From Dehalococcoidia bacterium (lineage in GTDB: Bacteria; Chloroflexota; Dehalococcoidia; UBA2979), in assembly GCA_029941115.1 (NCBI GenBank), contig JAPYRK010000009.1:1-64000 (forward strand): a stretch of DNA of 64,000 bases. The letters run 5' to 3'. The first letter of the stretch is position 1. The number at the start of each line of letters is the position of its first letter. The notes under the pieces are model-generated. The model saw nothing but the letters and a program-made list of their open reading frames with translations. It was not told the DNA's origin and did no database searches. Shown here in pieces: positions 3,183 through 21,554 of this stretch. Position numbers and translations under genes: made by a program.

Positions 3183-5897
3183 TCAACTAGCCGCAAACTC
3201 AATTGCAGCTTGGGCTGCTGCCAATCTTGCTATAGGAACACGATATGGAGATGCGGATACGTAATTCAAGCCGATACTATGACAAAAATATATTGAAGAT
3301 GGATCTCCGCCGTGCTCACCACAGATTCCCATCTTGAGATCAGGTTTTCGCTTTCGTCCGGCCTCAACGGCTTGAATAATTAATCCTCCAACACCGTCTC
3401 GGTCAATCTCAACGAATGGGTCATTCGTCAAAATACCTTTCGCCAGATAGTCTGGCAGAAATTTACCGACGTCATCCCGTGAGAAACCAAACGTAGTCTG
3501 TGTTAGATCATTTGTGCCAAACGAAAAAAAGTCGGCATGCTCGGAAATTTCGCCGGCTACTACACAGGCTCTTGGAACCTCGATCATCGTACCAACCAGA
3601 AATTCAATTTCACAGGCTCGTTCTTGCAACACGATCTCAGCAGTCTCGTATATTAAAGTTCGTAGTTGTTGGAGTTCAGACCCGAGTCCCACCAAAGGAA
3701 TCATTATTTCAGGCTCAACATCAACACCTTCTGACATAAGATCACACGCAGCTTCAATAATTGCTCTCGTCTGCATTTGATATATCTCCGGATATGTAAC
3801 GGCTAGACGTACGCCCCTATGTCCAAGCATCGGATTAACTTCTTCCAACGCATGAACTCGACTAGTCAATTCGTCTACCGAAATATTCAAGGCATCAGCA
3901 AGTTCGCTAATGTCCGAGCTAGACTGGGGGAGAAATTCGTGAAGCGGTGGATCCAATAGTCGAATTGTCACTGGAAAACCGGACATTGCGCGCAAAATTC
4001 CCGTAAAATCATCCCGCTGATGGGGAAGTAATTCTTCAAGAGCACTGATTCTTTCCACGTCGCTTCCAGCTAATATCATTTTACGAACCGAGTGAATTCG
4101 ATCTGCCGCAAAAAACATATGCTCTGTCCTGCACAAACCAATTCCCTCAGCTCCAAACTCACGAGCTTTTTTCGCGTCGCCCGGGGTGTCAGCATTTGCT
4201 CGAATACGCAGGGACCGACCAGCATCCACCCAGCTCATAACCTCGTCATACTCAATCGGTGGGACGGCCTCCGTTAGAGTCGCCGATCCGAGAATTACTT
4301 GACCAGTGCCCCCATCAATCGAAATAACATCGCCTTCTTTGACAACGAGTGTCCCGCTTGAGCTCTCAATTGAGAATTGAGACTTTTGATAATCAATTCG
4401 AAGGTCATTACAGCCCGTAACGCAGGGTAAACCCATACCGCGAGCGACCACAGCAGCATGAGAAGTCATACCACCCCTAGCGGTTAAAATTCCTTTCGCT
4501 AGATTCATCCCATCAATATCTTCTGGGCTAGTCTCATCTCGAACGAGAATCACATCCTTGTCTTCGGAAGCCAGTCTGACAACATCTGTTGGGCTAAAAA
4601 CCACCATTCCGACTGCCGCGCCAGGTGCCGCAGCCAGACCGCTAGCAATTACTTCCTGTTCAATGGGTTGCTTAAAAATAGGGTGAAGCATTTCGTTCAG
4701 CTGGTTTGGATCCAACTTCCTAAGTGCATCATTCTCAAGTAATATGCCTTCCTTCACCAAATCAGCACAGATTTTAACCATAGCCGCTCCAGATCTCTTT
4801 CCCGATCTAGCTTGGAGAATCCAGAGTTTACCTTGCTGCATAGTAAACTCAATATCCTGCATATCATGGAATGATTTCTCCAACAGATCACAGGCGCTTG
4901 CCAGTTCAGCAAAGACTTCAGGCATTGTTTCCTCAAGGGAATTTCCATCTAGACTCGTGTCTGGTTCGGCCAAGAGTGGCTGTGGCGTGCGAATGCCTGC
5001 TACAACATCCTCACCCTGTGCGTTAACCAAATATTCACCAAACAACCGATTTTCACCTGTTGAAGGGTTTCGCGTAAATAAAACACCAGTCCCCGAGTCA
5101 TTCCCAAAATTTCCAAATACCATTGCTTGAACGTTCACGGCCGTACCCCAACTGGAGGAGTACCCATTGATAGATCGATAACTCACCGCACGCGGTGTGT
5201 CCCACGACTCGAACACTGCGCCAATCGCCCCCCATAACTGATCTGTAACATTATCCGGAAATGATTGCCCAGATCTCAAAAAAATAAGTTCTTTAAATTC
5301 TGTAACAAGCTCGCGTAAATCTAGTACAGAAAATTCAGTATCCTGCTGGATATTCCGCTCAATTTTTTTTGCATTAAGAATCATTTCGAAGGGATCCTGA
5401 TCGGTTTCTGTTAACTTTCCGACACCCATGACTACATCGCCATACATTTGAACAAATCTTCGATATGAGTCATAGGCAAAGCGCGCATTTTTGGTTGCAG
5501 TAGCCAGGCCTTCAGCCGTTTCGTCGTTAAGTCCAAGGTTTAAAATAGTGTCCATCATGCCAGGCATCGATACTCTGGCTCCCGATCGGACAGAAAGTAA
5601 GAGTGGATTACCTGGATCGCCAAAAATTGCCCCTGAGATTTCTTCAATCCGTGCCAGACCTAGGGAGACTTCAGTCGACAGTTCGCTTGGAAAGGTTCTT
5701 CCATTAGCAAAATATGAGTTACAGACATCCGTGGTGATGGTAAATCCAGGCGGCACAGGTATTCCCAACCTACTCATCTCAGCAAGCCCTGAGCCCTTTC
5801 CACCAAGCAAATTACGATCCACAGAGCTCGCGCGCCCATCGCCAAAACTATGAACTAATGGTTCGCTCACCAGATCAGATACTTTATCAACTACCAT
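3183..5897 (-). CDS. ppdK: Pyruvate, phosphate dikinase
   Basis: Interconverts pyruvate + ATP + Pi and PEP + AMP + PPi. Domains are in the usual order: an N-terminal ATP-grasp nucleotide-binding domain (GGKGSGLAEM at its start), a central swivelling domain with the phospho-accepting His in GGMTSHAAVVAR (about residue 480), and the C-terminal PEP/pyruvate TIM barrel ending with CGEHGGDPSS. The frame opens at 5939, but the ATG at 5897 has a GGGGG ribosome site six bases before it, giving 904 aa, close to the family norm. The fmdB-like gene follows. With a TCA-type aconitase nearby it could serve gluconeogenesis or PPi-linked glycolysis. Confidence 0.96.
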   Translation of the reverse strand: MVVDKVSDLVSEPLVHSFGDGRASSVDRNLLGGKGSGLAEMSRLGIPVPPGFTITTDVCNSYFANGRTFPSELSTEVSLGLARIEEISGAIFGDPGNPLLLSVRSGARVSMPGMMDTILNLGLNDETAEGLATATKNARFAYDSYRRFVQMYGDVVMGVGKLTETDQDPFEMILNAKKIERNIQQDTEFSVLDLRELVTEFKELIFLRSGQSFPDNVTDQLWGAIGAVFESWDTPRAVSYRSINGYSSSWGTAVNVQAMVFGNFGNDSGTGVLFTRNPSTGENRLFGEYLVNAQGEDVVAGIRTPQPLLAEPDTSLDGNSLEETMPEVFAELASACDLLEKSFHDMQDIEFTMQQGKLWILQARSGKRSGAAMVKICADLVKEGILLENDALRKLDPNQLNEMLHPIFKQPIEQEVIASGLAAAPGAAVGMVVFSPTDVVRLASEDKDVILVRDETSPEDIDGMNLAKGILTARGGMTSHAAVVARGMGLPCVTGCNDLRIDYQKSQFSIESSSGTLVVKEGDVISIDGGTGQVILGSATLTEAVPPIEYDEVMSWVDAGRSLRIRANADTPGDAKKAREFGAEGIGLCRTEHMFFAADRIHSVRKMILAGSDVERISALEELLPHQRDDFTGILRAMSGFPVTIRLLDPPLHEFLPQSSSDISELADALNISVDELTSRVHALEEVNPMLGHRGVRLAVTYPEIYQMQTRAIIEAACDLMSEGVDVEPEIMIPLVGLGSELQQLRTLIYETAEIVLQERACEIEFLVGTMIEVPRACVVAGEISEHADFFSFGTNDLTQTTFGFSRDDVGKFLPDYLAKGILTNDPFVEIDRDGVGGLIIQAVEAGRKRKPDLKMGICGEHGGDPSSIYFCHSIGLNYVSASPYRVPIARLAAAQAAIEFAAS

Positions 5898-5981
5898 CCA
5901 AGCCCCCAGATGAAAAAATAGTTTCGTACAAGTCTTCAAGTTTTGTACAACTGGCTCAACTCATTCAAAACGAATGCGTTC

Positions 5982-20051: not shown

Positions 20052-21554
20052 CTAATGACTGATAAGTATTGTCTGAGCGGTAACATCGATAGTAATTTCA
20101 ATTTCACCCTCTACAATTTTCCAGTCAAGATCCGAATTCGAAGTGATTGCACAAGTGTCTGGACTGATGTTGCTTACTCGAAAGCTCGTGCGCTCGCCCT
20201 GCACACTGGGAATGCCATCATCCGTTGATATGACGAGTATTCGGTTCTCTGAATCATAACTAGCCTGAGATAAAGAAATATTCGGGAAATCAACCCCATG
20301 AACCGTCGGCTCATCAAACTTCTTTAAATTTGGTTGTTCGAAAAGCTTTGCCCATGCGCCAGCTGAACCGGCTTCAGCATAGGCCATGATGGCATTGGGT
20401 TGGCCACGTGGGTAAATCTCATTTAAGCCAAATCCCCAAGTGAATTCACCTGACTCAGGATTCCAAGTGGGTTCATAGTTCGCGTCAGCATACGAAATCA
20501 AATTACTATAGAGTAAATCTTTTCCAAACTCTCTCGCGAGAGCAGCAGTCCTCACCAAAGAACTCACGCCCCGCTCGCCGTTAGGAATAGTGACTGACTC
20601 TGACCAACCAAGCTGGTCCACCATGTTTTCAAATAATATCGCAGTGTCTTCTCGGTGCTGTGCTGCCGTGTGAAAGTAAAGTAGAGATCCACTCGCGCTA
20701 GGACCAACGTGGTGATAATCAATCACTGGGTCATAATATAAGGTCTGAGAATCAGGCGGATTCCCCGCTTCGAAAGGTATGTAGACCCGCTTCGTGTATT
20801 CCCACCAATCGTTGTAGATCGAGTGAGTCGAGCCGTCGAATAAAATATCATACAGTCTCAAACCGAGACCAGCTGCGCCCAGTCACGTGGGCCATATCTT
20901 AGTGTTTTCTCAGTGCGGACCTTCCGGATTTTGCTCCCACTGTTCTTGAAGAAAATGAGCCATTTTCTCATGAGTCCAAGCGAATGTATTCTCCCCGTCA
21001 CGAACAATGTCAAAAGGTTCATTCCACTTAGGATCGCCAGAGACATATCTGTGTAATCCCATCACGACAAGGAACCAACCTCGATAAAATAAATTCCCGT
21101 CCGCACCTACCGGATCCATTTGGAGTCCCCATGGTTCAACACCATTAGCCGTCCAGCCGGGTACATCGTAGTCATTGACCAGGTGTTCGGGAAGTAGTCG
21201 CTGAAAGGCTTCGGGATACTTACCTCTGCGTGGATCTTCTCCGATTTGGTCTAACCAATCCTTGGCAGCCCAATACCCAGAATATCTCTGCACAATCTCA
21301 TCCAGAATCGAGCCATAGACTTCACGCCATGCTGGCGTAGTCTCGGCCATCAAAGCAACTGAATAACTAGACTCAAACAGATCAAATCTATGCCATGAAG
21401 TAGTCGGCTCTCCCGTTCGATTGTCCCAATGATCGTGTGGCTTACCCTCTTTATTCCAGTTGTCCGGAGTGTGGGCTTTTCTATACAAATACCTAAGCCA
21501 GCCTCGTGAACGTTCACTCAGGATAGGGAAATCTTTAGCCAATTCCTGTTGCAT
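20052..21554 (-). CDS. Candidate double-selenocysteine linalool dehydratase/isomerase-family protein
   Basis: Read through two in-frame TGA codons (20912-20910 and 20885-20883) this is one 500-residue protein; read conventionally it is two ORFs (20910-21554 and 20052-20861) in the same frame. The joined sequence resembles the linalool dehydratase/isomerase (LDI) family: DPVGADGNLFYRGWF and HRYVSGDP in the first part, GLRLYDILFDG just after the second TGA, then FGLNEIYPRGQPNA (about residues 374-387) and FDEPTVHGVDFP. In characterised LDI two catalytic Cys lie nine residues apart and the first is followed by Glu. Here the TGAs (residues 215 and 224) are also nine apart and the first is followed by GAA (Glu). 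No other stop interrupts the frame. I infer Sec at both positions. The alternative is a pseudogene with two nonsense changes. LDI-family enzymes dehydrate or isomerise tertiary or allylic alcohols; substrate here unknown. Confidence 0.75.
20853..20871 (-). promoter_or_regulatory. SECIS-like hairpin after the second in-frame TGA
   Basis: On the minus strand TGGTCTC (20871-20865) pairs with GAGACTG (20859-20853) around loop GGTTT. Five pairs are Watson-Crick (GTCTC/GAGAC) and two at the base are G-U wobbles. The loop starts 19 bases after the TGA at 20883 and opens with GG followed by T, matching the G-rich loop start of bacterial SECIS elements. It does not overlap the first hairpin. Not verified by folding software. 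Confidence 0.55.
20877..20892 (-). promoter_or_regulatory. SECIS-like hairpin after the first in-frame TGA
   Basis: On the minus strand GCCCA (20892-20888) pairs with TGGGC (20881-20877) around a six-base loop CGTGAC. The stem is five perfect pairs, four of them G-C. The loop begins 23 bases after the TGA at 20910 and has G as its second base, as expected of bacterial SECIS elements. The second TGA (20885-20883) lies inside this loop. Not verified by folding software. Confidence 0.5.

Follow-up and report, generated by a model that had tools for sequence, protein, structure and literature searches.

The window analysed here, a stretch of 64,000 nucleotides of Dehalococcoidia DNA, contains a gene whose reading frame is broken twice by TGA, and the locus thus raises the question of whether these codons are stops or encode selenocysteine (Sec, U) in an enzyme related to linalool dehydratase/isomerase (LDI). 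Comparison of sequences leads us to conclude that the window gene, like dozens of related genes from several phyla, carries predicted Sec where a terpene-converting enzyme has its two catalytic Cys.

A single reading frame with two internal TGA codons

The ORFs 21554..20910 (214 aa ahead of the stop) and 20861..20052 lie in the same frame. The original prediction, that the two are split only by a pair of TGA codons, proved exact: between the ATG and the terminal TAG the 500-codon frame has only two stops, TGA at codons 215 and 224 (Table 1). The sequence around them reads ...NPEGPH-TGA-ENTKIWPT-TGA-LGAAGLGLRLYD. No comparable in-frame TGA was seen in other genes of the window, and TGA terminates 11 of its 47 long ORFs, which indicates that TGA is an ordinary stop in this genome.

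Table 1 Features of the locus, in window coordinates
Feature	Position	Strand	Details
Predicted double-Sec LDI-like enzyme gene	21554-20052	minus	500 codons; ATG at 21554, stop TAG 20054-20052
TGA 1, predicted Sec codon 215 (LDI C171 equivalent)	20912-20910	minus	Glu216 next; homologues have Cys here, as does LDI (its first catalytic Cys)
TGA 2, predicted Sec codon 224 (LDI C180 equivalent)	20885-20883	minus	aligns with LDI Cys and with homologue Cys
Probable SECIS for TGA 1	20892-20877	minus	GCCCA-CGUGAC-UGGGC; loop 22 nt after UGA 1, contains UGA 2
Predicted SECIS for TGA 2	20870-20854	minus	six-pair stem, apical loop GGUUU (GGUCU in relatives), 18 nt after UGA
Alpha/beta hydrolase, next gene downstream	19987-19199	minus	PF00561; conserved genus neighbour
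Gamma-glutamyltranspeptidase-family protein, same presumed operon	19202-17457	minus	PF01019, E=1.6e-127
Metallo-beta-lactamase-fold hydrolase, same presumed operon	17450-16611	minus	PF00753

Homology to LDI and position of the TGA codons

Read with TGA as Cys, the product matched the Pfam family PF18566 (Ldi) at E=3.5e-13, with 50.2 bits against a curated cut-off of 26.1. When profiles built from relatives were compared with the PDB, LDI structures were the sole matches at E<0.01 (5e-11); a single-sequence phmmer search of the PDB gave nothing useful. In the profile alignment the two TGA codons fall on both C of LDI's ...GIVCEPDNYFVQC..., which PDB titles number C171/C180 and the literature C170/C179. 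LDI loses activity if either Cys is changed to Ala or Ser, and its activity requires both to be reduced (PMC6600392). Both TGAs therefore lie on the catalytic pair, as had been predicted; the Cys of natural Cys/Cys homologues align there too, and the further expectation of two chalcogen residues spaced nine apart as in LDI, the first of them followed by Glu, is met in the window protein.

The AlphaFold model (45 sequences; mean pLDDT 92.5, pTM 0.94) showed a predicted (alpha/alpha)6 barrel as in LDI. Its best 27 Foldseek matches in the PDB were all Castellaniella LDI, with E down to 6.4e-11 and TM normalised by target of 0.70-0.75, at an identity of only about 15% in the structural alignment. 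An LDI-like fold of the window protein is, in our judgement, virtually certain. The model also has a C-terminal beta-rich domain of about 80 residues (window 20055-20306; model strands 417-499) that Castellaniella LDI, a shorter protein, apparently lacks.

The conserved core of the family is H-U/C-E-N-T-K-[IV]-W-P-x-U/C, and D58, D275, E379 and R383 are invariant; as far as alignment can tell, these residues would fit a cofactor-free active site. D58 is conserved in 45/45 and Y64 in 40/45; the LDI sequence alignment ends short of both, and their equivalence to the LDI Asp/Tyr is only a guess. Distant LDI-like proteins (L017-L019) carry the pair as C-E-x7-C. In a second set of distant LDI-like proteins, from other Chloroflexota genomes (L133-L137), the simple C-E-x7-C pattern was not found, and these may form a branch with another catalytic arrangement.

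Distribution of predicted Sec and Cys among the relatives

Among 393 genomes searched in the class, two of the same genus have both TGAs (G320 and G329; 74% identity), two of another family have Cys then TGA and two have Cys at both positions, all in register. From a scan of GTDB contigs the best 80 of 273 relatives were kept, among which the states at the two positions were UU in 11, CU in 47, CC in 22 and UC in none. The scan patterns included CENTKIW, favouring Cys at position 1, and these counts are not unbiased frequencies; two of the loci (L050, L051) probably come from the same genomes as G320 and G329. The UU, CU and CC series meets, at both positions, the criterion for a bacterial selenoprotein of an in-frame UGA where homologues have Cys.

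The close relatives G320 and G329, checked for pseudogene-type disruptions, keep the frame and both TGAs. As the same codons recur in these genomes and in-frame TGA is confined to the two catalytic positions in the 80 further loci, the pair cannot be ascribed to chance. The TGA-bearing genes, about 31,000 codons in all, showed no further in-frame stop except in L116 (one TAA/TAG). That locus (4893-5924) is a UU copy cut by a contig end, perhaps a decayed copy or an assembly error.

According to the record names, the carriers include Chloroflexota/SAR202, Acidimicrobiia, Alpha- and Gammaproteobacteria, Entotheonella, Binatota and deltaproteobacteria. The states require 4 changes on an 81-sequence tree, compared with 30 by shuffling, with two changes at position 1 and three at position 2. 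Second-position Sec likely arose first and first-position Sec later, about twice, the root not having been inferred. Paralogues occur within single genomes: two alphaproteobacterial MAGs have three (L052, L068 and L070; OY282368.1) and four (L060, L062, L063 and L066; DEBC01 records), and an Entotheonella MAG (OX639990.1; L061, L064) has one CU and one UU copy.

Sec machinery

The original prediction called for a search for the sel genes, and all were found in the window genome (1.9 Mb, 93% complete): tRNA-Sec (selC, anticodon UCA), selA, selB and selD. Its SelD (L044, G000 contig 7) is a selenoprotein as well, the TGA lying in ...SCGGUGAKLG... Adjoining tRNA-Sec on G000 contig 17 is a gene (L002, 1690-2170, plus strand) for the catalytic subunit of ferredoxin-thioredoxin reductase. 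It has an in-frame TGA in ...WKYCHU... and represents a selenoprotein family known before, here in a form with a single Sec.

Of 50 genomes compared, 32 have a TGA-bearing gene and 18 have Cys-Cys genes; selA was detected in 30 of the former and 6 of the latter (p=1e-5, to be taken only as a guide, since the genomes are not independent). One of the six selA-positive Cys-Cys genomes (L110) rests on a partial match below the cut-off. The distribution of selB agreed, with no match above the cut-off in the 12 Cys-Cys genomes that lack selA. Neither selA nor selB was detected in two of the 32 TGA genomes (L081 in G412 and L104 in G427), whose CU genes have a conserved SECIS despite this; incomplete assemblies, the completeness of which was unchecked, are possibly the cause of these exceptions. 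Counts of tRNA-Sec across genomes were left out of the statistics, since ordinary tRNAs of control genomes match the family model too.

Hairpins downstream of the TGA codons

All 59 TGA-bearing genes, the window gene included, have after the second TGA a hairpin with a six-pair stem and a five-base GGUYU loop, which Cys-only genes lack. In 53 distinct TGA-bearing sequences, 100% of the hairpin cells were paired. One stem pair varies among them as C-G (35), U-A (10), G-C (7) and U-G (1), and 17 cells have compensatory changes on both sides; the covariation score and percentage paired were reached by none of 500 shuffles. The Leu+6 and Gly+7 codons after the TGA are CTC and GGT in 59/59 TGA-bearing genes each, compared with four codons each in Cys-Cys genes, and nothing at the protein level requires this freezing. 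By the rules for bacterial SECIS elements, the apical loop lies 16-37 nt past the UGA with G among its first two bases (PMC13188914). With its GGUYU loop at 18 nt and its covariation, the hairpin after UGA 2 meets these rules, and on this pattern it is a textbook bacterial SECIS. Since 46-55% of random positions pass a generic scan with the SECIS rules, which thus discriminates poorly, we rely on conservation and covariation for our argument. The lack of a SECIS family match in the window with Rfam at 'gathering' is unsurprising, given the diversity of bacterial SECIS elements.

A stem of at least 5 bp across TGA 2 was present in 12/12 double-TGA genes versus 14/47 Cys-TGA and 3/22 Cys-Cys genes (Fisher p 8.6e-6 versus CU and 7e-7 versus CU and CC together), the double-TGA genes representing only about four independent clades. 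This first hairpin is weak in energy (mean shuffle z-score -1.1), and in some clades neither of the first two loop bases is a G. We infer that it quite probably serves as the SECIS for UGA 1, holding UGA 2 in its loop, with less certainty than for the second element.

Gene neighbourhood

Downstream of the LDI-like gene, the order of hydrolase, gamma-glutamyltranspeptidase-family and metallo-beta-lactamase-fold genes (Table 1) is the same in L050 and L051. The CU gene of Acidimicrobiia (L085, L087-L089, L098, L100, L107, L113) is followed at 0-11 nt by a phosphotriesterase-family gene (PF02126, scanned in L089). A recurring gene upstream of it encodes a protein whose N-terminus resembles acyl-CoA dehydrogenase. 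In a Binatota-like clade (L075, L077, L079, L083), a DUF169 (PF02596) gene lies 10 nt downstream of the UU gene. In L057, a gene of the same cluster as this neighbour lies 139 nt downstream of the CU gene. These neighbours suggest catabolism of small organic molecules without naming a substrate. An attempt to read the substrate from the neighbourhood failed because the neighbours change between clades.

Proposed mechanism and alternative explanations

That Sec replaces both Cys, the central claim of the original prediction, is supported by the TGAs aligning with catalytic Cys, the SECIS elements following them as Sec insertion requires, the Sec machinery and the frame kept in relatives, and for these reasons it is favoured over decay. 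Actual insertion at both positions 215 and 224 is inferred, without proteomic or biochemical evidence, and we consider it almost certain. A decaying pseudogene or sequencing errors would leave in-frame stops, and the L116 fragment with its added TAA/TAG shows such damage, but they do not explain why the same two TGAs stand in independent genomes of several phyla, why more than 31,000 codons of TGA-bearing genes have no other stop, L116 aside, or why the SECIS is conserved and dN is low on either side of the TGAs (0.07 and 0.14; dS is saturated and no dN/dS ratio is given). As frame and hairpin are conserved in unrelated genomes, this explanation is refuted for practical purposes. Reassignment of TGA to another amino acid, or readthrough with a standard one, would equally open the frame by making TGA a sense codon; it is likewise refuted in practice by the termination of 11/47 long window ORFs, and of many TGA-bearing genes themselves, with TGA, by the restriction of in-frame TGA to Cys positions and by the presence of SECIS and Sec machinery.

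With Sec accepted at both positions, the gene would be expressed as follows. SelB and tRNA-Sec would decode UGA 1, aided by the hairpin that holds UGA 2 in its loop, and UGA 2 would then be decoded with the strongly conserved GGU-loop hairpin 18 nt on. The 500-residue product would adopt an (alpha/alpha)6 barrel like that of LDI, extended by a C-terminal beta domain. Judged by analogy to LDI, no cofactor would be needed, and the two selenol(ate)s, with Glu216 and other conserved residues, may act as acid, base or nucleophile in the dehydration, hydration or isomerisation of an unsaturated alcohol or similar compound in a catabolic pathway. A lowered pKa and raised nucleophilicity of the selenols, part of the original prediction, remain an untested chemical inference. 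Against this explanation stand the low identity to LDI, the lack of Cys for a capping disulfide, the Trp or Phe that mostly replaces the His of the YKGH motif, neighbourhoods that vary with the clade and the two TGA genomes in which selA and selB went undetected. We hold this explanation as a whole, a two-Sec selenoenzyme of the LDI superfamily with nested UGA decoding and cofactor-free LDI-like catalysis, to be likely.

What the selenols do is the part for which other accounts must be weighed. The LDI-fold protein could use them as a redox pair (selenol/diselenide), for example as a peroxidase or reductase. A redox function is assumed for most catalogued selenoproteins (PMC13188914), and L050 and L051 have no Cys beyond the two Sec, both of which fit such a role; fold and motif are nevertheless those of a non-redox hydro-lyase/isomerase family, no redox partner gene adjoins in a conserved manner, and both LDI thiols must be reduced (PMC6600392). 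We regard the redox pair as unlikely, and non-redox LDI-like chemistry, inferred with the substrate unknown, as fairly likely. Still less plausible is a role in detoxification, with a metal, metalloid or organometal compound being bound or cleaved by the selenols: links to Hg or As exist for several selenoproteins (PMC13188914), yet no metal-resistance gene occurs among the conserved neighbours scanned, which are mostly catabolic-type enzymes (SDR, phosphotriesterase family, hydrolases), and we give this account very little weight.

If the preferred reading of LDI-like chemistry with Sec is true, a large multi-phylum family with Sec in an LDI-type catalytic pair would widen the known uses of selenium beyond the mostly redox roles assumed so far. 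The natural Cys/Cys, Cys/Sec and Sec/Sec forms would allow the gain from each selenium atom to be measured directly, and SelB processivity becomes testable on the two recoded UGAs, which lie 27 nt from each other and have overlapping signals. Standard gene calling splits such genes into two or three false ORFs, and the family has probably been missed or mis-annotated wherever TGA is read as stop. We see the chances as evenly balanced that these genes represent a widespread selenoenzyme class in which one or two selenols serve non-redox hydration, dehydration or isomerisation and in which the two recoding signals of two-Sec mRNAs are nested at a distance of 27 nt, with the second Sec codon in the first SECIS loop.

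Comparison with known systems

Neither PF18566 nor any linalool enzyme is among the 119 prokaryotic selenoprotein families and subfamilies listed in a 2026 review (PMC13188914), and NCBIfam release 20 has no model matching the family. Our literature search, which did not cover subscription papers, preprints or current RefSeq/UniProt, found no paper joining linalool dehydratase with selenocysteine or selenoproteins and none naming PF18566. The original prediction had known of no Sec-containing LDI-family protein, and no earlier report emerged from the catalogue or this search; the family is absent from the published catalogues that could be read.

Castellaniella-type LDI (EC 4.2.1.127/5.4.4.4) has a capping disulfide, C48-C101, and a periplasmic signal peptide, and acts on linalool, geraniol and myrcene. 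The window protein does not meet the structural criteria of this type. It has one Cys outside the Sec positions, and L050/L051 have none, so that the capping disulfide is impossible in the same form. No hydrophobic signal sequence was seen by eye at the N-terminus of the window protein, and the residue aligned with the His of the LDI YKGH motif is mostly Trp or Phe in the family. In view of the missing disulfide and the replaced His, we place the window protein in the LDI superfamily, outside the characterised LDI enzyme type. With the Castellaniella defragrans enzyme (PF18566, PDB 5G1U/5HLR/5I3T) it shares the fold, the C-E-x7-C catalytic spacing and homology to the LDI profile; it differs from that enzyme in having predicted Sec at both Cys positions, a TGA-coded gene with SECIS, an unknown substrate and about 130 additional residues, including the C-terminal beta domain. 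The linalool isomerase (LIS) of Thauera linaloolentis also belongs to the LDI superfamily and is active in the reduced state (PMC4791888), but is membrane-anchored and has not been described as a selenoprotein. Catalogued bacterial selenoproteins with two Sec, such as the FmdB family (UxxU), TsoB (UxxxxU) and MbdU, share with the window protein two Sec per polypeptide, encoded by UGA with a bacterial SECIS (PMC13188914). They belong to other families with other motifs, none of them LDI/PF18566, whereas the predicted spacing in the window protein is U-E-x7-U.
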